Part shown: positions 1,404 through 11,864 of the stretch, one piece after another
How positions within the stretch are numbered: the stretch's first letter is position 1
Layout of the letters: the number at the start of each line of letters is the position of its first letter
Assembly: GCF_003435375.1 (NCBI RefSeq)
Contig: NZ_QWGL01000036.1
Span: 1 to 28,719 of the forward strand
Reading direction: 5' to 3'
Source: Clostridium sp. AM34-11AC
Lineage (GTDB): Bacteria; Bacillota; Clostridia; Lachnospirales; Lachnospiraceae
DNA length: 28,719 nucleotides
Notes under the pieces: generated by a model
Databases searched by the model: none
What the model was told of the DNA's origin: nothing
What the model saw: only the letters and a program-made list of their open reading frames with translations
Translations under genes and position numbers: made by a program

Positions 1404-4400
1404 CTATCTCTTTTTCTTCGGCGTAAAGTCCTCCTCGATGACCTTCCATGCAGCCTCAACGCTGAAGTACTCGCGGATGTATTTCTGGGTCTCCTCGCAC
1501 ATTCTGCGGCATTCTGCCGGATCCTGATACATCTTGACTACCTCGTCAGCGAATGCCGCCGGTCCGTCGGCAACCTTCATGACACGATCCGCCTCCGGGA
1601 TTCCCTCGGAACCGATGGATGTGGTGACGATGGCAGCTCCATTGTAGACTGCCTCAACGACCTTGCCCTTAACTCCGGCGCCGTAGCGCAGCGGAACCAC
1701 AACGATGCGGGATGTGGAATAAAGAGACGCAAGCTCTTCCTCCGTGACAAAGCCTTTGACAATGATGCCGCTTCCCGGCTGTTCAAGCGCTTTGATCTCG
1801 TCTGTCACCTTAGAGCCAACCACATAGAAGTTTACGTCGATCCTCTGTCTGATCAGCGGGAAGATCTCCTTTGCGAACCAGAGAACCGCGTCCGCGTTCG
1901 GCGGATGCGCGAAGCCGCCGACAAACAGCAGTCCCTCCCTCTTTGCGAAGTCCTTGTCGATATTCTCCAGGAATTTCTCATAGACATAGGCTGTGATCGC
2001 CTTGATCTTGTACTCCGGATGGATCGCGTGGATCGCCTCCTCCTCCACGTAGGACGGATAGTAGGAGACCGCCGCCTTCTCCATCAGGGAGAATTCGATG
2101 GATTTCCAGTAATCGGACTCCCGTTTCTTCTTGATATCGCCGGTAAGCTCGTACTCCCGGTACTCTCTTAAGAAATGCAGATCATGTCCGTAGTAGATCA
2201 CCTTGATATTGGTGTTCTTCTTAATAAAATCAACATACTTGATGGCGATATGCGGACGGTTCAGGTACGCAAAATCGATCTCATCTTTATTCTTTGTCAG
2301 CCAGTCCCAGATACCTGCCTGGTACTCCGGCCCATATAAGATCTCCACGCCCATCTGCTGAAGTGTTGTGGAGTACGGCTCCTCGTGAAGGAAGTTGTCT
2401 CCGAGGAATTTCACGGAATATCCCATCTTCACGAACATTTTGAGGTACTGGTAAGTAGTCTTGGAACCCGCGTCCTTATCGAAGGTCGGAACATAATGGT
2501 CCACCACAAGGATCACCGGCTTCTTCTGGCTTCTCTCACGGGCACGGAACGGGTTCGGATTGCCTGTATTTACAGACTGCTTTTTGAACTCCTCCGCCCA
2601 CTTTTCCTTTAGCTTCTTACTGTTCTCCACCTGGTAGCGCTTTAGACCAGTTCCATTTACGTCGGTACCGTTGGAGACGCCCTCGAAGTGGATGACTTTT
2701 GACAATGGCTGGTAGACTACGCGGTATCCGGCTTTTCTCACCTCGAAGGCAAGGTCGGAATCCTCGCAGTACGCCGGTGCAAACAGCTCGTCGAAACCGC
2801 CGATCTGTTTCCAGAGGTCATTGGATAACAGGATCGCCGCACCGGAGATATAGTCCACATCCTTCACGTAGTTGTATTCCGGCTTCTCCGGATCGTCAAG
2901 ACGTCCATAATTCCAGCCGGAGCCGTCGCTCCAGATGATTCCCCCCGCTTCCTGGAGACGTCCGTCAGGGTAGACCAGCTTGGAGCCAACCATACCGATC
3001 GTCGGATCAGACTCGATGAGGTTCACGAGTGATGAGAGCCAGCCCGGAGTTACCTGTGTGTCATTATTTAAGAACATCACATATTTTCCGCGGGCCGCCT
3101 TCGCTGCCTGGTTACAGTTTCTCAGGAAACCCTGGTTCGTCTTGTTTCTGCAGATCACGAGATTCTCCGCGTACAGGGACAGCTCCTTCGTCGCGTCCGT
3201 GGACACGTCATCGGCGATGATGATCTCATAGGTCACATCCTTCGTGTTCTCTAAGATTGAGAGCAGGCAGGCATAGGTATAGTGGATCTGGTTGTAGACC
3301 GGGATCACGATGGACACGGTCGGGTGCTCCACATAGTCAAAATGGAGTTTTCCATGCTCTAAGTAACCGGCGCCGATCTTAAAGTCGCCGCGGATCCTGT
3401 TTCTTCCGTCCTTTGTGAAATACAGCCTTCCGTATTTTCCCGGATGAAAGACGGTATTCTTGAAGTACCCCGCGATCTTTCTCTTTCTTGTGCCCTTCGG
3501 CATGACTTTATCCACAGCGCGGTGGCATTTCCGGAGAACTTTCCACATGATCGCCTCATGTTTCGACAGGTACTGCAGGTCTCCCGCCATTCTCGCGTTC
3601 TCGCTTCTCAGGCTGGCGATGATGGCATCCAGGTTCGTCACATGATTGTTTGTGAGACGCTGGACTTCCTGCTGCTTCATGATCGTGATGTCCTTCTCGG
3701 AGATCTCCTGCTTTAAGTTCTCGCACCAGTCTTTTACCTTGTAGAGCTCGCTCTCGCGGTCAAGAAGAAATTCCACGGTCTTTGTCGGCTGCTCGTACTG
3801 TTTCATGTAGCCGAAGGAGCCTGCATCATGGACATAGGACTGGAACGCCTTTTCCATGCCGTCAAAGATCTGGAGTTCTCCCCCTGTGATCCCGAAATGG
3901 GCATAGAGATCCTCTTCTTTTACGTTGAGGACTCTCTCGTAGCGTCTGTAAAAATATAAGAGGTCGCGGTATTTCAAAAATTTCTCCGGGATTGGGAAAT
4001 CAAATACCCATTCATAGTCGATTCCGTAGATGCAGTTCTCGTTTTCCGGCACCATCAGGTTCTCGAAGAGCCCATCCACATTGGAGACCGCGGCTGCCTT
4101 ATCGTCGATCATCGGAACTTTTCCGAATACCGTCTCGAACTCCGGTGTCGCCTCAAAGATTTTCGCGTCTGCATTTTCCGGGAACAGCACCTTCATCACG
4201 GTCTCAAGCTCCTGATACGGAACCTCGCCCATAACGATAGCCTCGCCCAGGGCATCCCCGACCGTCTTGCCGTTTAAGTACTGGAAGGAGACCGTCTTCT
4301 TATCCTTTTTCCATTCCGGCTTCAAGAAACGGATGGCAGGATTCAGATCACGGATCTTCTCATATTTTTCTCCGAAGGAGCGGATATGCGCCTCGCCAGC

Positions 4401-4517
4401 CTCTGTGAGAGCCGTTTTTTCAACGGTGAGAACTTCGTCCTCCCGCACGATCTCTGTCTTTAACTGGAACTGCGCCGCTCTGGTCCGGTTGTATTTTACA
4501 AATAAAATCTGTCTCAT
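1404..4517 (-). CDS. Kinase-like / coiled-coil / GT2 / GT4 fusion protein
   Basis: A cytoplasmic protein of 1037 residues that probably elongates a surface glycan. Four parts can be seen. (1) Residues 1-180 resemble a protein-kinase or APH fold: candidate ATP lysine Lys34, a catalytic-loop-like NVDGLFENLM with Asp148 and Asn153 in D-x4-N spacing, and a metal-site-like Asp167 in YGIDYEWVFDFPIP. (2) Residues about 254-331 are strongly heptad-like and look like a coiled coil. (3) A GT2 domain starts near 398 (TVSIVIPVYNQ) and has LNNDT as its DxD-type motif and a CEDSDLAFEVRKAGY acceptor-side motif. (4) A GT4-like domain fills about 680-1030, ending in a nucleotide-sugar site near GAGVKGKVVEA. 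The ATG at 4515-4517 shares ATGA with the methyltransferase stop and has AGGGGAAGG upstream. A longer in-frame start at 4583 would lie inside that gene and is rejected. The kinase assignment is fold-level inference. Confidence 0.85.
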   Translation of the reverse strand: MRQILFVKYNRTRAAQFQLKTEIVREDEVLTVEKTALTEAGEAHIRSFGEKYEKIRDLNPAIRFLKPEWKKDKKTVSFQYLNGKTVGDALGEAIVMGEVPYQELETVMKVLFPENADAKIFEATPEFETVFGKVPMIDDKAAAVSNVDGLFENLMVPENENCIYGIDYEWVFDFPIPEKFLKYRDLLYFYRRYERVLNVKEEDLYAHFGITGGELQIFDGMEKAFQSYVHDAGSFGYMKQYEQPTKTVEFLLDRESELYKVKDWCENLKQEISEKDITIMKQQEVQRLTNNHVTNLDAIIASLRSENARMAGDLQYLSKHEAIMWKVLRKCHRAVDKVMPKGTRKRKIAGYFKNTVFHPGKYGRLYFTKDGRNRIRGDFKIGAGYLEHGKLHFDYVEHPTVSIVIPVYNQIHYTYACLLSILENTKDVTYEIIIADDVSTDATKELSLYAENLVICRNKTNQGFLRNCNQAAKAARGKYVMFLNNDTQVTPGWLSSLVNLIESDPTIGMVGSKLVYPDGRLQEAGGIIWSDGSGWNYGRLDDPEKPEYNYVKDVDYISGAAILLSNDLWKQIGGFDELFAPAYCEDSDLAFEVRKAGYRVVYQPLSKVIHFEGVSNGTDVNGTGLKRYQVENSKKLKEKWAEEFKKQSVNTGNPNPFRARERSQKKPVILVVDHYVPTFDKDAGSKTTYQYLKMFVKMGYSVKFLGDNFLHEEPYSTTLQQMGVEILYGPEYQAGIWDWLTKNKDEIDFAYLNRPHIAIKYVDFIKKNTNIKVIYYGHDLHFLREYREYELTGDIKKKRESDYWKSIEFSLMEKAAVSYYPSYVEEEAIHAIHPEYKIKAITAYVYEKFLENIDKDFAKREGLLFVGGFAHPPNADAVLWFAKEIFPLIRQRIDVNFYVVGSKVTDEIKALEQPGSGIIVKGFVTEEELASLYSTSRIVVVPLRYGAGVKGKVVEAVYNGAAIVTTSIGSEGIPEADRVMKVADGPAAFADEVVKMYQDPAECRRMCEETQKYIREYFSVEAAWKVIEEDFTPKKKR

Positions 4518-5374
4518 GCCTTCCCCTTTTCCCACATGCCAAGGAATGAGTTCGTGAATTTCGTGAAGTCCCCATTTCTGCATGCGTTCGTCATGGCTTT
4601 CTCCTCGTTTCCGAACCAGAGTCCCGGTCCGTCAAGACGGGCGGAGATGTTCGTCACATCGCCGGTCTGCGGGAGATAGCCGTCGGAGTAGATGGTCACC
4701 GGGTAACGGTAGTCCGGAACCGGATAGTAGAGCATTGCGGTTCCGCCAAATTTCTCTTTTAAGTCCTCAAACAGACCACGGAACTCCACCTCCAGGAAGG
4801 AGTGCTCAAATGGCTCCGCTCCCATGAAATAGCGGACACCAGACTCATTCTCCGCTGCCGCTAAAAGCCTTCCGCCAGGTCTCACAAGAGCAGCTGCTCT
4901 TGCCAGCAGATCTGCTGCCCCGTTTTTCTCTGTCCTGGAGAGCATGGACGGCAGGATCACATAGTCGAAGCCATCCTTATAGAGAGCATCCAGTTCTTCT
5001 GCCGCACGCTCTTTTCCCTTGTACTCTTTCCATCCAAGAGACTCTGTTCCCGCCTTTGGAAGTTCGCCGCGGACCAGGCAGAGATTTTCCTTCTCTCCGT
5101 GTCTTTTCCGGTTCACCTCCAAGTTCTCATCCAACGGATCCAGAACGACCACCTCACCGGCGCGCTCCGCAAAGAGCCCGGTACAGGAACCGTAGTCGGA
5201 TCCGACCTGGAGAACCCGGTCCTTTTTTCCTATTTCCAGCCACTCGAAAAGGTTTTCCCTTAACGGCGAAAATGCGTAGAGACACCACGGGCTTGTTTCA
5301 CCCCGCAGTGCCGCCTCCGCATCTCCTTTATACTTTTCGAGCAGGTCAAGAAGTTCATAACTGTAATCCTTCAT
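4514..5374 (-). CDS. SAM-dependent methyltransferase of the polysaccharide operon
   Basis: A 286-residue class I methyltransferase. SAM-binding motif I is VLQVGSDYGSCTGLFAE at about 54-70, followed by an acidic strand end (VVVLDP) and a later FDYVILPSML strand. The C-terminal third (PDYRYP, IYSDGYLP) looks like an acceptor-specific region. It is translationally coupled to the kinase/glycosyltransferase fusion by an ATGA overlap, and it follows the Wzm/Wzt exporter by 14 bases. That position suggests it methylates the exported glycan, possibly at the non-reducing end to stop growth, but its acceptor cannot be read from sequence. The ATG start has GGGAG eight bases upstream. Confidence 0.8.
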   Translation of the reverse strand: MKDYSYELLDLLEKYKGDAEAALRGETSPWCLYAFSPLRENLFEWLEIGKKDRVLQVGSDYGSCTGLFAERAGEVVVLDPLDENLEVNRKRHGEKENLCLVRGELPKAGTESLGWKEYKGKERAAEELDALYKDGFDYVILPSMLSRTEKNGAADLLARAAALVRPGGRLLAAAENESGVRYFMGAEPFEHSFLEVEFRGLFEDLKEKFGGTAMLYYPVPDYRYPVTIYSDGYLPQTGDVTNISARLDGPGLWFGNEEKAMTNACRNGDFTKFTNSFLGMWEKGKA

Positions 5375-5388
5375 CTTTTCTCCCGCTT

Positions 5389-6705
5389 TTACGCCCTTGT
5401 GAGCGATGTCTCCACCTCAGACTCCATGTCGTAGACGCCGACCGTATTCTTGTTGGAGATCACCGTAATGTTTGCAATGTTGTACAGGCGGTGGTAGACC
5501 ACATGTTCCTCGCCCTCGAAGCCGGTACAGCTCATAGAGAGCAGGTACTCGCCGCCCTGTAATGTCATCTTCTGGGTAAAGGAAACGTCGTAGACATCGC
5601 CATCCCCCACCGGTTTGATATCGCATCCCTCGTACATGGTGTTCGTTCCGGTGAGGTCTGTTCCCTTTTTATCGCGGATCGTGTAGGTAAAGATCGGACT
5701 CTTGATCGGCGCATGGAAGCGGATCCGCTCCTTGATCGTGAACATCTCTCCCTTTAACAGAAGGTTTGTGAGATTTCCTTTCGCGTCGAAGAGTCCCAGG
5801 TCGAAGATCTCAGCCCGGCCGTCACCGTACTCGGTGCGGTCTGTGTTGATGGTGATCTTATCCTTCATGAGGGATCCGTCGGAATGGGATTCCTCCGCCT
5901 TCGCCTTTTTCTCATCGCCTAACATCCCGCCGGAATAATCGCTCTCCAGTTCTTCATTTAAGGAATCCAGCTGGTTTGCCAGGATCTTCTTATAGAGATC
6001 CACCATGTGACCCGGCTCACCTTCCGCGATGAATTCGCCCTTGTTTAAGAGAACGACCTTATCGCAGTATTTGATGATACTGCCCATATCGTGGGTAACC
6101 ATGAGGATCGTTGTTCCCCTCTGCTTGATCTCCTCCATCTTCCGGTAACATTTTGCCTGGAAGAATACGTCTCCGACGGACAAGGCCTCGTCGACGATCA
6201 GGATCTCCGGCTCCACATTAATGTTGAGCGCAAACGCCAGACGGACGAACATACCGCTGGAGTATGTCTTCACCGGCTGATAGACAAAATCGCCGATATC
6301 CGCAAAATCCAGGATATCCTGCAACTTCTCATCCATCTCCTTCCGGGAATAGCCCATCATCGTGCCGTTCATATAGATATTTTCGATTCCGGTGTAGTCC
6401 ATGTTGAAGCCGGCACCAAGCTCCAGAAGTGCGGAGATCTTTCCCTCAACGTCCACCTGGCCTGTGGTCGGTGTGAGGACACCGGTGATGATCTTTAAGA
6501 TCGTTGATTTACCGGAACCGTTCGTTCCGATAATGCCCACCGTCTGTCCTTTTTCCACGTTGAAGGACAGACCATTTAAGGCATAGAAGTCTTTGTGATA
6601 GCTTTTATGTGTCAGGCTTAAGGATTCTTTCAAGCGGTCGATCGGCTTGTCGTAGAGCCTGTACACCTTCGTCACGTCTTTTACTGTAATCGCATTGGCA
6701 GACAT
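5389..6705 (-). CDS. wzt: Polysaccharide ABC exporter ATPase with Wzt-type C-terminal domain
   Basis: The ATPase of a Wzm/Wzt (TagGH, RgpCD) class glycan exporter, 438 residues. Walker A GTNGSGKST is at 60-68, the signature SSGMFVRLAFA at 149-159, Walker B ILIVDEAL at 168-175 and the switch His at 205. After a charged linker (about 235-285), residues 285-430 form a predicted beta-sandwich with the pattern EYGDGRAEI and TGTNTMYEG typical of Wzt C-terminal domains. Those domains bind the modified end of the polymer before export. TagH and short RgpD-like ATPases lack this domain, so it argues for chain-end recognition here. The ATG start has TAGGAGG upstream; the permease stop is nine bases away. 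Confidence 0.9.
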   Translation of the reverse strand: MSANAITVKDVTKVYRLYDKPIDRLKESLSLTHKSYHKDFYALNGLSFNVEKGQTVGIIGTNGSGKSTILKIITGVLTPTTGQVDVEGKISALLELGAGFNMDYTGIENIYMNGTMMGYSRKEMDEKLQDILDFADIGDFVYQPVKTYSSGMFVRLAFALNINVEPEILIVDEALSVGDVFFQAKCYRKMEEIKQRGTTILMVTHDMGSIIKYCDKVVLLNKGEFIAEGEPGHMVDLYKKILANQLDSLNEELESDYSGGMLGDEKKAKAEESHSDGSLMKDKITINTDRTEYGDGRAEIFDLGLFDAKGNLTNLLLKGEMFTIKERIRFHAPIKSPIFTYTIRDKKGTDLTGTNTMYEGCDIKPVGDGDVYDVSFTQKMTLQGGEYLLSMSCTGFEGEEHVVYHRLYNIANITVISNKNTVGVYDMESEVETSLTRA

Positions 6706-6714
6706 GGTTTCCTC

Positions 6715-7533
6715 CTACAATACATCTGAGAAATGCGGACGGAGCCGCTTGAATACTTTGAGTCCCACTAACATGGTGATCAGGGTCACTGCCCAGAAAT
6801 ACACGGTCAGTGTCGGACGCATGAAGAACCAGTCTCCCGTCAGCATGCTGTCACGGTATCCCGCCGCAATATAGTAAAACGGGTTCAGCTTCAGGATCAT
6901 CGGAGCCATCGTCAGACCTTTGTCGAGGAATAACTGCTCGCTGTACATAATCGGGGTCAGCCACATGCCGAACTGCAGGCAGATGCTGACGATCTGTGCC
7001 ATATCCTTGAAGAATACCTGGATCGCGCTGGTAAGATAGGTGAGCGCCAGGGCGTACATGGATGCGGCAAAGGAATAATAAATGATCTGGATCCAGGAAA
7101 TCTGCGGTCTTTTGCCGCTGACCAGGAATACGATGAACATGATCGCAACAAAGAACACATGGACGAACAGGCAGGAGATCAGTTTGATCACAGGCAGGAT
7201 CTCCACCTTAAATACTACTTTTTTTACCAGGTAGTTGTATTCCTGAAGGCATCCTGTTCCGCAGTTTAAGGCTTCGGAGAAGAAGAACCACGGGGCGATA
7301 CCCGGAACCAGCCACTGGACATAGGAGGCGTTCGGCACCGGCGGCGCACTCTTGAATCCGATGGGACCGAAGATGAGCCAATAGATCAGGACGGTGACGA
7401 TGGGCTGGATAAACATCCAGACAACGCCAAAATAGGAGCCGACAAAACGTTTTCTGAAATCTGCCTTGGAGAGTTCCCAGATCAGTTTTCTTTTTGCCAC
7501 CAGCTCCTTCAGTAATGAAGTCAGATAATTCAC
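6715..7533 (-). CDS. wzm: Polysaccharide ABC exporter permease
   Basis: An ABC-2 type permease of 272 residues, partner of the ATPase that follows. After an N-terminal amphipathic stretch (RKRLIWELSKADFRKRF) come about six membrane segments. The conserved GVVWMFIQPIVTVLIYWLIF and LNPFYYIAAGYRDSML regions are typical of Wzm/TagG/RgpC exporters of lipid-linked polysaccharide. The start is GTG; AAAGG lies about ten bases upstream, which is acceptable but not strong. It lies 87 bases after rfbC, in the same transcription direction. Confidence 0.88.
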   Translation of the reverse strand: MNYLTSLLKELVAKRKLIWELSKADFRKRFVGSYFGVVWMFIQPIVTVLIYWLIFGPIGFKSAPPVPNASYVQWLVPGIAPWFFFSEALNCGTGCLQEYNYLVKKVVFKVEILPVIKLISCLFVHVFFVAIMFIVFLVSGKRPQISWIQIIYYSFAASMYALALTYLTSAIQVFFKDMAQIVSICLQFGMWLTPIMYSEQLFLDKGLTMAPMILKLNPFYYIAAGYRDSMLTGDWFFMRPTLTVYFWAVTLITMLVGLKVFKRLRPHFSDVL

Positions 7534-7620: not shown

Positions 7621-8196
7621 TTATCTGTCGAATTTAAAAATTTCCTTGAATCCCGGCCATTTCTGGTCTTTCTCGGAGATGATGAGCTGCATGTCCGGTG
7701 TGATCGGCCACTTTACGCCGATCGTCTCATCATTCCATGCAAGTCCGCCCTCGTCACCCGGATGATAGAAATCGGTGCACTTGTAGGCAAACTCTGCCTC
7801 GTCGGAGAGAACGACAAAGCCGTGTGCGAAACCTTCCGGAATGTAGAACTGTTTCTTGTTCTCTGCGGAGAGCTCAACACCGAACCACTTTCCGTATGTC
7901 TTGGAGTGTGTTCTTAAGTCAACGGCTACATCGAAAACTGTTCCACGTACCGCCCGGACGAGCTTGCCCTGCGGGAACTGCTTCTGGAAATGAAGGCCGC
8001 GGAGTACGCCCTTTACGGACATAGACTGGTTATCCTGTACGAATACCATGTTGAGTCCAGCCTCTTTGAAGTCGTTCTGGTTGTATGTCTCCATGAAGTA
8101 TCCGCGCTCGTCGTTGAATACGGTCGGCTCGATCACATGAAGGCCTTCGATTACCATTCCATCTGTTTCACAGGAAGAAACTTTGATCTTTCCCAT
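7621..8196 (-). CDS. rfbC: dTDP-4-dehydrorhamnose 3,5-epimerase
   Basis: The RmlC/RfbC enzyme, third step from dTDP-glucose to dTDP-L-rhamnose. At 191 residues it has normal length. Visible family motifs are FNDERGYFMETYN, VLRGLHFQ with the catalytic-base His69, RGTVFDVAVDLR, YIPEGFAHGFVVLS and CTDFYHPGDEGGLAWND. The ATG start has GAGG nine bases upstream. It leads an operon with the exporter and glycosyltransferases, which points to a rhamnose-containing polymer. rfbA, rfbB and rfbD are absent from the window, so the rest of the pathway must be encoded elsewhere. Confidence 0.95.
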   Translation of the reverse strand: MGKIKVSSCETDGMVIEGLHVIEPTVFNDERGYFMETYNQNDFKEAGLNMVFVQDNQSMSVKGVLRGLHFQKQFPQGKLVRAVRGTVFDVAVDLRTHSKTYGKWFGVELSAENKKQFYIPEGFAHGFVVLSDEAEFAYKCTDFYHPGDEGGLAWNDETIGVKWPITPDMQLIISEKDQKWPGFKEIFKFDR

Positions 8197-8444: not shown

Positions 8445-9371
8445 CTATTTCCAGTAATTGCGGTTCATAGACAGCTTTACTGCCAATTTTCTTGGCAGCT
8501 TCTTATACCTTTTCCCGGCAAGATACCCCAGATACTTGAATCCGCTGTCCACCACAAGCTTCGGGACGAGGTACGCGTGCCCCGTCTTTACGAGCCAGCG
8601 GGCTGTGTCCTTCACCATGCGGATGCCCTCGCCCTCGGACCGGATCCCGGAGAATACGTCGGGATTGTCCGCCTGGGAGATCGCCAGGTCAAAGTTTCTG
8701 TGGAACTGCTGGGACGCCGTATAGTTATGGGAGTGGATCACTCTCGCGTCCGCCGCGTAGTAAACCGCGTATCCATTCTTCATGGCCTTCGCCGCGAAGA
8801 TCATGTCCTCGTTGAAGATCGTCTTCCGGATAAAACCACCGAGTTTCCTATAGATCTCCCGCTTATATGCCGCGCAGACATTGGAACAGAAGTAGGTCTT
8901 GATCCCCAGGGTGTCGAGGTCTGAAAGTCTCTTGACCCGGCTTTTGTCCGGATAGTTAAAATCTCTCGTGTGGCACTCGATGATATTGCAGTCCGTTGCC
9001 GGAAGCTGTCTCGCATATGCCACAGCGATATCGTCCCCGGAGAAAAGTGCGTCCGTCAGGGCTTTTATCAAATTTGTATCCGCTGGAAGCGCATCATGGG
9101 TCATGCAGACACAGACATCCGCATCGGAGTGCCCGATCCCTGCGTCTCTTGTAGCGCCATGGTCAAACTCTTCCTTCGTCACATGGTACACGGAGAGATT
9201 TTCCGGGAGTCTTCCCGGTTCCAGGGTCTCCGTCCACTTATCCCACAGGTACTTTTCTGTATTCATGATGATCAGCCGGTCCACCGGTACGGTCTGGCGT
9301 CCCAGCCGGTCAAATAATTCCAACAATCTGTTTCCCGGACCATAGACCGGGATGATCACATCAACCTTCAT
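8445..9371 (-). CDS. GT2 glycosyltransferase, rhamnosyltransferase-like
   Basis: A 308-residue GT-A fold enzyme. Residues 3-12 (VDVIIPVYGP) are the nucleotide strand, and FDHGATRDAG near 69-78 is characteristic of bacterial rhamnosyltransferases. THDA at 91-94 stands in the DxD position, and FNEDMIFAAKAMKNGY near 190 is the catalytic-base region. A basic C-terminal tail without a membrane segment suggests a peripheral protein at the inner membrane face. The ATG overlaps the flippase stop by 11 bases, so it is co-translated with it. With rfbC starting the next operon, dTDP-rhamnose is the likely donor, but that is inference. Confidence 0.85.
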   Translation of the reverse strand: MKVDVIIPVYGPGNRLLELFDRLGRQTVPVDRLIIMNTEKYLWDKWTETLEPGRLPENLSVYHVTKEEFDHGATRDAGIGHSDADVCVCMTHDALPADTNLIKALTDALFSGDDIAVAYARQLPATDCNIIECHTRDFNYPDKSRVKRLSDLDTLGIKTYFCSNVCAAYKREIYRKLGGFIRKTIFNEDMIFAAKAMKNGYAVYYAADARVIHSHNYTASQQFHRNFDLAISQADNPDVFSGIRSEGEGIRMVKDTARWLVKTGHAYLVPKLVVDSGFKYLGYLAGKRYKKLPRKLAVKLSMNRNYWK

Positions 9372-10674
9372 CGTGTTTTTGAGCTCTCTCTTTCTGTTTC
9401 ATAAATCCTGCAGAGAAAATTCCAAAGAATACCATCAGTGCCGCCATCAAAAGCATGTATACGAAGGCGCCTCCCTGGATTCCTCCCATCCGGACGAACC
9501 AGCCGGAAGAAAGCACCGCGAGTACGCTGACGAAGGCGTAGCCCAGGATGATGAACCTCTGTTTCTGCATGATAATAAGGGAATAGTAAAACAGGTTCAT
9601 GAATGCATTGAGGGCGCCGCCGATGATGATCAGTACCAACGCCATGCGGCAGGTGGAAAGTCCTTCTCTTAAGTTTGGGTACAGCAGGCTGATCACCGGA
9701 ATTCCCAATAACCACGCACCGCCCACCGCGAGAACGGTCAGGGCCGCAATGATCAGGGCAAGGTTCATGATGATCTTCCGGAATGCTTTTAAGTGGCCTG
9801 TCTCCCAGTCCACCGCGAGCTTTGTGAGGTACGGGCGGATCACGAAGCCGGCAACCAGATTGATCACGCTGGTCGGCATAAAGATCGCGCCGTAGACTGC
9901 GAGATCACGGTCTGCCATATGGGCCTCGATGGCGTATTTTGATGCAGAAAAGATATAGAAGTCCAGAACCACCGAGAAAAATAACAGAACATTGTCCCGG
10001 AAGAGCTGGAATTTCTTTCCTTGCACCGACTTCCATGTCACATTCGGGAGTTCCCGGATCACGAGGAAGTCAAACAGGAAAAATCCCACGGTCTGCGCGC
10101 CCACTGCCCAGATACTGGCGGTCAGAAGCTCTCCCGTCACCGCGAGACTTCCGAGAAAACAGGTCACGGAGAGGATCGTCCGGAACGCATTGGATTTTCC
10201 CGTCAGGTACAGTCTTCCCCCCCGCTGGAATTCCGCCTCGTATGTATCCGCCAGGGCATCGATGACCTTGTAGACCACCATCAGGAAGACAATGACCGCT
10301 TTCTCAAAGGTATAGCCGCTGACCATCACATAGCCAAAGCCCACAAGGATCGCGAGACCGCAGGTGATGAGACGCAGCCCGAGATAGTCACCGAAGGTGT
10401 ACTTCTCCCCGGTATCCGTGATCTGGAACGGGCGGATCCCAAAGTATGCCGCCATGAACATGTGCTGTCCGAAGGTGGTAAAGGCGAAGGTGAACACTCC
10501 GCCCGCGTCCTCGCCCGCAAGCTGGACCACCGCGATAGAGAGCACCATGGACGCAAAGGCGTAGAGGAAGCTTCCGATCATATTCCAGATAATGTTCTTC
10601 TGCTCCGACACCGCGGATCCGTCGCCGATGATGAGTCTGGCAAACCCGTGAGGCGTTTTCGGTCGGTTATTCAT
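9361..10674 (-). CDS. Wzx/MATE-like polysaccharide flippase
   Basis: A membrane protein of 437 residues with about twelve hydrophobic segments across its length, matching oligosaccharide-lipid flippases of the Wzx/RfbX class. The first segment begins near NIIWNMIGSFLYAFASMVLS, and the C-terminus is charged and cytoplasmic. Its role would be to turn undecaprenyl-linked glycan units across the membrane. The ATG at 10672-10674 is chosen because AAGGA is eight bases away; an upstream in-frame TTG (10680) is only two bases from that site. It overlaps the glf stop by eight bases. Having a flippase beside a separate ABC exporter suggests two different products or a side-branch donor lipid. Confidence 0.82.
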   Translation of the reverse strand: MNNRPKTPHGFARLIIGDGSAVSEQKNIIWNMIGSFLYAFASMVLSIAVVQLAGEDAGGVFTFAFTTFGQHMFMAAYFGIRPFQITDTGEKYTFGDYLGLRLITCGLAILVGFGYVMVSGYTFEKAVIVFLMVVYKVIDALADTYEAEFQRGGRLYLTGKSNAFRTILSVTCFLGSLAVTGELLTASIWAVGAQTVGFFLFDFLVIRELPNVTWKSVQGKKFQLFRDNVLLFFSVVLDFYIFSASKYAIEAHMADRDLAVYGAIFMPTSVINLVAGFVIRPYLTKLAVDWETGHLKAFRKIIMNLALIIAALTVLAVGGAWLLGIPVISLLYPNLREGLSTCRMALVLIIIGGALNAFMNLFYYSLIIMQKQRFIILGYAFVSVLAVLSSGWFVRMGGIQGGAFVYMLLMAALMVFFGIFSAGFMKQKERAQKHDEG

Positions 10675-11776
10675 TTCCAAATTCCTTCTTTACGCAGGAC
10701 AGGGCGGACTCGATAACCTTATCCATATCGTAATAGCGGTATTCCGCGAGTCTTCCGCCGAAGATCACATTCTTCTCTTTTTCAGCGAGTTCCGCGTATT
10801 TCTTATATAATTCCTGGTTTCTCTCATCGTTTACCGGATAGTATGGCTCCATGCCCTCGGTCCACTCCGCCGGGTACTCTCTCGTGATGACTGTCTTCTC
10901 CTGGGTTCCGAACTCGAAGTGTTTGTGCTCAATGATCCTCGTGTACGGAGTCTCGCGGTCGGTGTAGTTGATGACCGCATTGCCCTGATAGTTGTCGCAG
11001 TCTAAGACCTCCGTCTCAAACCGCAGACTGCGGTACTGGAGTTTTCCGAAGCAGTAGTCGAAATAGCTGTCGATGGTTCCTGTATATACGACCTTGTCCG
11101 CAAGGGCGTCATATTTCTCCTTGTCAGCCAGGTAGTCGGCTCCGAGGCGGATCTCACAGCCCTCGAAGAGCTTTTCCGTGATCTTATTGTAGCCGCCGAT
11201 CGGGATTCCCTGGTAAAGGTCATTGAAATAGTTGTTGTCGTAGGTGTAGCGTACCGGGAGACGTTTGATGATGAAGGCTGGGAGCTCCTTGCAGTCTCTG
11301 CCCCACTGTTTCTCAGTGTAGCCCTTGACAAGCTTCTGGTAGATATGGGTTCCCACAAGGCTGATGGCCTGCTCTTCCAGGTTCTTCGGCTCGCCCTTGA
11401 TGACCTTTCTCTGCTCATTGATGATCTTTTTTGCCTCCTCCGGAGTGGAGATTCCCCACATGCGGCTGAAGGTGTTCATGTTGAACGGCATGTTGTACAT
11501 CTCGCCCTTGTAGTTCGCAACCGGGCTGTTTGTATAACGGTTGAACTCCACGAGACTGTTCACAAAGTTCCATACTTCCCTGTTGCTGGTATGGAAGATA
11601 TGGGCACCATAGCGGTGTACATTGATGCCCTCGATATTTTCACAGTAAATGTTTCCGCCTGCGTGTTCTCTCTTCTCAAGAACCAGGCAGGTCTTTCCGG
11701 CTTTTTTTGCGTAGTACGCGAAAACTCCGGCGAAAAGTCCGCTGCCCACTAACAGGTAATCATATTGTTTCTTCAT
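10667..11776 (-). CDS. glf: UDP-galactopyranose mutase
   Basis: A flavoenzyme converting UDP-galactopyranose to UDP-galactofuranose. The FAD-binding motif is DYLLVGSGLFAGVFA near the N-terminus, followed by VLEKREHAGGNIY. Further Glf motifs are HRYGAHIFHT, GYTEKQWG, RLPVRYTYDNNYFND and a C-terminal GRLAEYRYYDMDKVI. Starting at the ATG at 11774-11776 gives 369 residues, the usual length, with GAGGAG ten bases upstream. An ATG six codons earlier has no ribosome site. The locus polymer therefore probably includes galactofuranose, whether in the main chain or as a branch. Confidence 0.95.
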   Translation of the reverse strand: MKKQYDYLLVGSGLFAGVFAYYAKKAGKTCLVLEKREHAGGNIYCENIEGINVHRYGAHIFHTSNREVWNFVNSLVEFNRYTNSPVANYKGEMYNMPFNMNTFSRMWGISTPEEAKKIINEQRKVIKGEPKNLEEQAISLVGTHIYQKLVKGYTEKQWGRDCKELPAFIIKRLPVRYTYDNNYFNDLYQGIPIGGYNKITEKLFEGCEIRLGADYLADKEKYDALADKVVYTGTIDSYFDYCFGKLQYRSLRFETEVLDCDNYQGNAVINYTDRETPYTRIIEHKHFEFGTQEKTVITREYPAEWTEGMEPYYPVNDERNQELYKKYAELAEKEKNVIFGGRLAEYRYYDMDKVIESALSCVKKEFGNE

Positions 11777-11864
11777 ATAGACTGTTCTCCTCATTGTCCC
11801 GGCTTTTCTGCGCCGATGTATTTTGCAGCATGGGTGAGCTGGATTTTATGTCCTGCTGCCTGAA

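Follow-up and report, generated by a model that had tools for sequence, protein, structure and literature searches.

A conserved clostridial locus of the probable terminator–ruler–polymerase kind beside a Wzm/Wzt glycan exporter

The stretch of DNA analysed here, called the window, comprises 28,719 nucleotides of contig NZ_QWGL01000036.1 of Clostridium sp. AM34-11AC and carries on its minus strand a gene cluster transcribed in the order glf, a gene for a 439-amino-acid protein, a family 2 glycosyltransferase (GT2) gene, rmlC, wzm, wzt, a methyltransferase (MT) gene and a gene for a 1037-amino-acid protein (Table 1). An initial annotation, made from the letters alone, had placed these parts correctly: the TGA of the MT gene overlaps the ATG of the next gene (at 4517) as ATGA, the frame opened by this ATG encodes 1037 amino acids, and Pfam recognises a GT2 and a GT4-type domain in the C-terminal part of the product. 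A longer reading of 1059 amino acids from 4583 is also open; most relatives with the same split arrangement begin at the equivalent of 4517. Neither Pfam nor NCBIfam yields a match at E ≤ 1e-3 for residues 1-390 (for NCBIfam, among 25 of 27 families listed). Together with wzt, the last two genes represent a gut Lachnospiraceae-type system that is real, conserved and widespread and probably of the terminator–ruler–polymerase kind. Such a system was partly anticipated in Klebsiella; what is new is an unannotated kinase family and its strong genomic link to one subtype of the Wzt C-terminal domain (Wzt_C).

The kinase-like N-terminus proposed for the 1037-amino-acid protein holds up. Residues K34, D148, N153 and D167 lie where they had been read and are invariant in all 61 aligned sequences that span kinase and helix, and the predicted structure is a protein-kinase-like (aminoglycoside phosphotransferase, APH) fold, with the Lys, Asp-x4-Asn and Asp present, that groups with APH, choline and macrolide kinases. 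The stretch 8-148 ranges from 138 to 213 residues across the 61 sequences. Judged by its sequence, the domain appears to belong to another family, one that is as yet unannotated, goes unrecognised by Pfam and is present in many related bacteria; no paper on this clostridial kinase family was found among the open-licence PMC papers listed. A kinase-like domain could also serve as a non-catalytic sensor of the glycan end, leaving the MT alone to cap the chain, and E. coli O8 WbdD is indeed described, in the part of the source consulted, as just a methyltransferase that lacks the kinase domain (PMC3482155). Since the active-site Lys, Asp, Asn and Asp are nearly invariant across 218 kinase sequences, we consider a mere sensor very improbable, the least probable of the explanations weighed here. 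Paired adjacent MT–kinase genes occur at two loci (L147, 6004-12174; L148, 8914-12005); at L147 one of the copies has altered catalytic residues, at L148 both do.

The MT encoded beside Wzt has 286 amino acids, weak Pfam MT matches (best E 1.3e-5, below the gathering cut-off) and the motifs of a class I S-adenosylmethionine (SAM) site, in agreement with its first assignment. Among 208 MT sequences, G58 is conserved in 203, G62 in 205 and D79 in 137, with Glu in its place in 68. That it is a split-off module is borne out by 33 of 80 close loci, in which the MT is fused to the kinase. The two enzymes might alternatively be a choline/ethanolamine-type kinase and a phospho-base methyltransferase that make phosphocholine-like glycan groups by a LicA-like logic: LicA heads the Foldseek rows obtained with the kinase model, and phosphoethanolamine methyltransferases are among the fold matches of the MT. 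But APH(3')-Ia outscores LicA in VIA (12.7 vs 11.1), the MT resembles many unrelated class I MTs to about the same degree, and no LicC or LicD domain was found among the eight cluster proteins scanned, the other window genes not having been scanned for them. As such a pathway would moreover leave both the Wzt_C linkage and the ruler unexplained, we regard it as very improbable.

Where the initial annotation saw a coiled coil of about 75 residues, the model predicts one helix of 91 residues (248-338) and the family displays a heptad period; this much of the claim stands, while the coiled-coil score discussed below does not support it. The hydrophobicity profile of 61 sequences peaks at a period of 3.50 with a power of 90 (permutation 95th percentile 55), a value reached by none of 2000 permutations; the window sequence alone is borderline for this period (73 of 2000). 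Segment 284-340 measures 57 residues in all 61 sequences and segment 230-340 measures 111 in 49 of them (range 110-134), and this near-fixed length fits what a ruler needs. Within the helix, EVQRLTNNHVTNLD (residues 284-297, window 3627-3668) contains three residues, N291, H292 and N295, that do not vary among the 61 sequences, which suggests that the helix also does something specific.

The modules are found both joined and apart among relatives. A search of 5.8 billion proteins yielded, among the matches listed, many relatives of about 1250-1390 amino acids, and those read or mapped carry MT, kinase, helix, GT2 and GT4 in a single chain. MT–kinase proteins of about 610-650 amino acids without a glycosyltransferase (GT) are among the matches listed from the second protein search, and those read are without the long helix sequence (the first search listed 120 of 248 proteins, the second 120 of 214 and another listing 120 of 388). 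The close set consists of the best 80 of 225 loci found; including the window, 30 of 81 loci have MT, GT2 and GT4 in the kinase open reading frame (ORF), 46 are split like the window and 5 are cut or broken. That the system is Gram-positive is judged from these relatives, whose loci are titled Lachnospiraceae, Clostridium, Enterocloster, Hungatella, Lacrimispora and similar Clostridia, some only 'bacterium' and one metagenome-assembled genome (MAG) 'Paenibacillaceae'. In a wider set of 136 loci with 138 kinase ORFs, MT and GT are both fused to the kinase in 11 ORFs, and in 25 only the GT is, the MT being a separate gene; of the remaining 102, 86 encode MT–kinase proteins or separate kinases with a tail of at least 150 residues and no GT. 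Of the 164 genomes matched below, 132 supplied the wider loci, which were chosen strong and odd-length first and then down to about E 1e-31, leave out weaker or unlisted places and genomes G001 and G003, and are in part the same as close loci. In both surveys domains were called with profiles grown from the window proteins on the loci themselves, and the alignments had 9 (A1), 16 (A2), 61 (A3, the window and 60 of the 80 loci), 30 of 121 (A4) and 34 (A5) rows. On a FastTree tree of all kinase stretches of at least 180 amino acids (218, including the window) there are at least 30 changes of the MT-fused state and at least 18 of the GT-fused state, rough counts that include broken genes. One relative of 1208 amino acids (P0031) is annotated with a GGDEF domain (PF00990) besides its GT domains and may be a chimeric assembly.

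The C-terminal beta-sandwich noted in the Wzt is a clear Wzt_C domain (PF14524, residues 290-427, E 1e-40, 139.5 bits against a cut-off of 30.4), and over residues 5-429, the C domain included, the protein is 35% identical to E. coli HS Wzt, annotated as of the O9 family. The survey proposed at the outset showed that kinase and MT near-constantly adjoin such a Wzt. It lies on the same strand in all 78 assessable close loci and in the window, within 1.3 kb in 76 of these 79 and within 3.3 kb in all; the close loci L019 and L056, which end just upstream, are not among the 78. In the wider set it lies within 5 kb in 124 of 132 assessable loci, four further loci not being assessable. At the genome level the survey covered 299 genomes from the family to which G001, the genome with the [Clostridium] asparagiforme locus L012, belongs; we take this family to be the Lachnospiraceae. 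The MT–kinase query P0194 matches 164 of the 299 at E ≤ 1e-3, and Wzt_C is matched in 180 of the 299, compared with 2 of 14 control genomes. Each of the 147 genomes whose Wzt_C match reaches E ≤ 1e-35 falls within the 164 (145 of 147 when P0194 is held to E ≤ 1e-10), which leaves 17 matched genomes without a strong Wzt_C; among the 135 genomes without a P0194 match, none has a strong and 27 have a weaker Wzt_C. Proteins with a short tail after the kinase may serve as a no-ruler control. They lack Wzt_C more often (3 of 9 ORFs vs 5 of 123 others; p 0.01 with kinship ignored and some split or cut genes included), a difference that is suggestive only. Short-tailed MT–kinase genes lie at L122, L124, L146 and L148, the last cut at a contig edge; no Wzt_C was seen within the stretch fetched at the first three, and by eye the L124 gene adjoins a likely cytidylyltransferase.

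How, then, does the system relate to WbdD of E. coli O9/O9a and K. pneumoniae O3, whose logic the initial annotation had invoked? Module order, kinase fold, helix, detached MT and Wzt_C neighbour all agree with that idea, but the view that the parts are WbdD's own is not supported. Like WbdD, described as MT, then kinase, then coiled coil (PMC3482155), the fused relatives have the order MT–kinase–coiled coil, the window MT being a separate overlapping gene; D351, N356 and D369 of WbdD correspond to D148, N153 and D167 (spacing +5, +13 vs +5, +14), and its gene likewise adjoins wzm-wzt with a C domain. WbdD differs in that it has no GT modules and recruits WbdA, whereas the window protein itself carries GT2 and GT4. 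Direct homology of the kinases was considered and rejected, as hhalign gives a probability of 2.9% over only 17 columns at the catalytic loop (a 34-member against a 30-member WbdD alignment). In the control, the WbdD profile finds WbdD and Ste20-type and other eukaryotic protein kinases, and the window-kinase profile finds no kinase. The MT profile aligns with WbdD only around the SAM site (73 columns, 86.9%; in another WbdD alignment 71 columns, MT region only, 42%). With so small a kinase match and such differing profile kin, the sequences point to a logic, order and catalytic pattern held in common but to no demonstrable common ancestor of the kinases. A structural model of the fused relative at L012 (602 residues; predicted local distance difference test, pLDDT, 84) retrieves WbdD (4azs) in Foldseek at rank 18 and with the longest alignment of the 50 shown (537 columns, the next 340), which should cover both enzyme domains. 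No WbdD chain is among the 50 entries of either VIA list, an absence that is no proof on its own.

The closest characterised system, compared by its description, is ORF6 of K. pneumoniae O7. The account consulted in part describes an MT, an unannotated kinase most like AmiN, a carbohydrate-binding-module (CBM)-like domain, a coiled coil and two GT2 modules, and ORF6 phosphorylates and methylates a repeat mimic in vitro, the D441A exchange abolishing phosphorylation (PMC11231755). Because this protein has been described, the statement of the initial annotation that it knew of no such fusion having been characterised is out of date; WbbB and WsaE, discussed below, are other fusions of terminator and GTs. 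The one-chain set of MT, kinase, coiled coil and two GTs recurs in relatives at the 30 single-chain loci among the 81, and the predicted fold of the window kinase is likewise APH-like. Differences from the ORF6 described there are that the CBM separates kinase and coiled coil, whereas in the window model the two are contiguous (the kinase helix ends at 240 and the ruler helix starts at 248), that its MT is in the same chain and not in a separate gene, and that it ends in GT2-GT2 instead of GT2-GT4. The relative at L120 (9053-12172), a kinase followed by GT2-GT2 with a separate MT, is nearest to ORF6 in GT make-up. Orthologues of ORF6 are reported from proteobacteria and cyanobacteria and homologues from Gluconacetobacter and Methanoculleus, and the main text nowhere uses the word Gram-positive (PMC11231755). 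Three further systems, one of Klebsiella and two of Gram-positive bacteria, bear partial likeness to the locus.

The terminator of K. pneumoniae O12 WbbB is a Kdo (3-deoxy-D-manno-octulosonic acid) transferase, thus a glycosyltransferase and not an MT–kinase. WbbB is alike in that a single chain unites its terminator with a coiled-coil ruler and two polymerising GTs, according to the portions consulted (PMC11231755). WsaE of the Geobacillus stearothermophilus S-layer glycan system likewise stems from a Gram-positive with an ABC-exported glycan and joins an MT to two glycosyltransferases, and a terminating methyl cap is proposed; it differs in that this cap is a 2-O-methyl rhamnose and that no kinase is described in the part of the source at hand, which adds that an extra length factor is possibly required (PMC2943079). 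Finally, the S-layer glycan locus of C. difficile Ox247 is clostridial, encodes an ABC transporter and makes a rhamnose-rich glycan with a phosphorylated non-reducing end, and its authors speculate that this end serves like the O9a cap (PMC6254364). It differs in that a cyclic phosphate is proposed and that, in the sections consulted, the gene responsible is not identified. With Ox247 there is a precedent, in a Gram-positive bacterium, for an ABC-exported glycan that is phosphorylated at its non-reducing end.

We consider it probable that kinase and MT cap the chain end, that the helix measures, that Wzt_C reads the cap and that Wzm/Wzt export the product. The locus would then make a lipid-linked glycan, to which the GT2 and GT4 domains add alternating repeat linkages at the base of a coiled-coil rod of about 90 residues that holds the kinase domain at its far end. 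Only chains long enough to reach the kinase would receive a phosphate at the non-reducing end, the separately encoded MT (part of the same polypeptide in many relatives) would most likely methylate this phosphate, and the cap would halt growth and license export when read by the C-terminal domain of Wzt. Several observations weigh against such an interpretation. Foldseek superposes the kinase model loosely on its matches (TM by query 0.25-0.40, root-mean-square deviation, rmsd, 7-24) and the L012 model poorly on WbdD (TM 0.19/0.25, rmsd 16), too poorly to establish a shared domain arrangement; by a COILS-type score no segment of the window protein reaches p ≥ 0.5; the conserved helix sequence exceeds the needs of a passive spacer; and most of the wider family has no GT after the kinase tail. 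Eight of the 132 assessable wider loci lack a nearby Wzt_C (L122, L124, L146, L150, L151, on a short contig, L173, L228 and L240). Two of these, L146 and L240, encode Wzm with a short nucleotide-binding domain (NBD) protein without a C domain; exporters of this form, which would have spoken against the proposed link had they been common, are thus infrequent. Weak P0194 matches may be MTs alone because the query includes the MT, and the co-occurrence of kinase and Wzt_C stems partly from co-inheritance in one operon, with P-values that ignore kinship. Some of these points would suit another explanation, by which the targets of kinase and MT are internal sugars or a side group along the chain (a WsaE-like O-methylation plus phosphate) and the helix serves only for oligomerisation or as a scaffold: polar residues are conserved in the helix, and the short-tailed MT–kinase proteins without Wzt_C at L122, L124 and L146 indicate that the pair can act outside capped export. 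The tight link to one Wzt_C subtype, the near-fixed helix length and a module order as in O7 ORF6 and WbdD argue against internal modification, which we therefore think unlikely, if less so than the two explanations dealt with above.

More broadly, and with less confidence than we have in capping and measuring as such, we tentatively suggest that the locus represents a third MT–kinase terminator family, distinct in sequence, which we saw only in Gram-positives of the Clostridia type and for which no descent from WbdD could be detected. The kinase would have been repeatedly fused to and split from MT and GTs and yet have kept its pairing with one Wzt_C subtype. In the bacterial family surveyed, about half of the genomes (the 164 of 299 that match P0194) would then make unrecorded surface glycans that are methyl-phosphate-capped and length-measured, a possibility that we would not call probable. 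If true, the cap-and-measure control of glycan length worked out on Gram-negative O-antigens would be a common route in gut Firmicutes, a Wzt_C subtype would be tied to a type of terminator, and a chemical mark, a phosphate or methyl-phosphate at the non-reducing end, would be predicted. The proteins would also provide natural all-in-one enzymes for polymerisation, measuring and capping in vitro, and the natural split and fused versions would let ruler and cap be studied apart.

Table 1. Features of the gene cluster (window positions)
Feature	Position	Strand	Basis
Class I SAM-dependent MT, putative detached N-terminal module of the terminator	4514..5374	-	weak Pfam, SAM-site residues, fusion in relatives
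ATGA stop/start overlap of MT and kinase-GT genes	4514..4517	-	sequence
APH-like kinase domain (predicted fold), residues 1-242 of 1037-amino-acid protein	3792..4517	-	
Kinase catalytic codons	K34 4416-4418; D148 4074-4076; N153 4059-4061; D167 4017-4019	-	
Candidate ruler helix, residues 248-338	3504..3776	-	predicted single helix, family period, kept length; COILS-type score negative
GT2 domain, residues 399-613	2679..3323	-	Pfam PF00535 E 1.7e-27 at 402-525; PF13641 at 399-613
GT4-type domain, residues 690-1037	1407..2450	-	Pfam PF13692 E 1.2e-22 at 862-999; NCBIfam TIGR03087 below cut-off
Wzt ATPase (438 amino acids) with C-terminal glycan-binding domain	5389..6705	-	Pfam ABC_tran and Wzt_C; Wzt_C at 5425-5838
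Wzm permease	6715..7533	-	Pfam ABC2_membrane
RmlC, dTDP-4-dehydrorhamnose 3,5-epimerase	7621..8196	-	TIGR01221 over cut-off
GT2 glycosyltransferase	8445..9371	-	Pfam
439-amino-acid protein between glf and GT2	9361-10680	-	no Pfam/NCBIfam match
UDP-galactopyranose mutase (glf)	10667..11794	-	TIGR00031 over cut-off

Among the neighbouring genes, two bear on the make-up of the glycan: rmlC, which has matches at 36 of the 80 close loci, suggests that it contains L-rhamnose, and glf suggests galactofuranose. At L045 (14241-17274), from an Enterocloster bolteae MAG, GDP-heptose-type genes (nucleotidyl transferase, GHMP kinase, HAD phosphatase and SIS isomerase) lie near the kinase-GT gene. The alternating Man/Rha capsule of C. 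bolteae, as described in the part of the source consulted (PMC8353590), was considered as a product of a relative and set aside in view of the heptose-type genes, and we claim no link. The separate GT2 glycosyltransferase of the window is a possible adaptor or side-sugar enzyme. The 439-amino-acid protein is by eye probably polytopic and, in a cluster that already has Wzm and Wzt, is possibly a flippase for a side-sugar.

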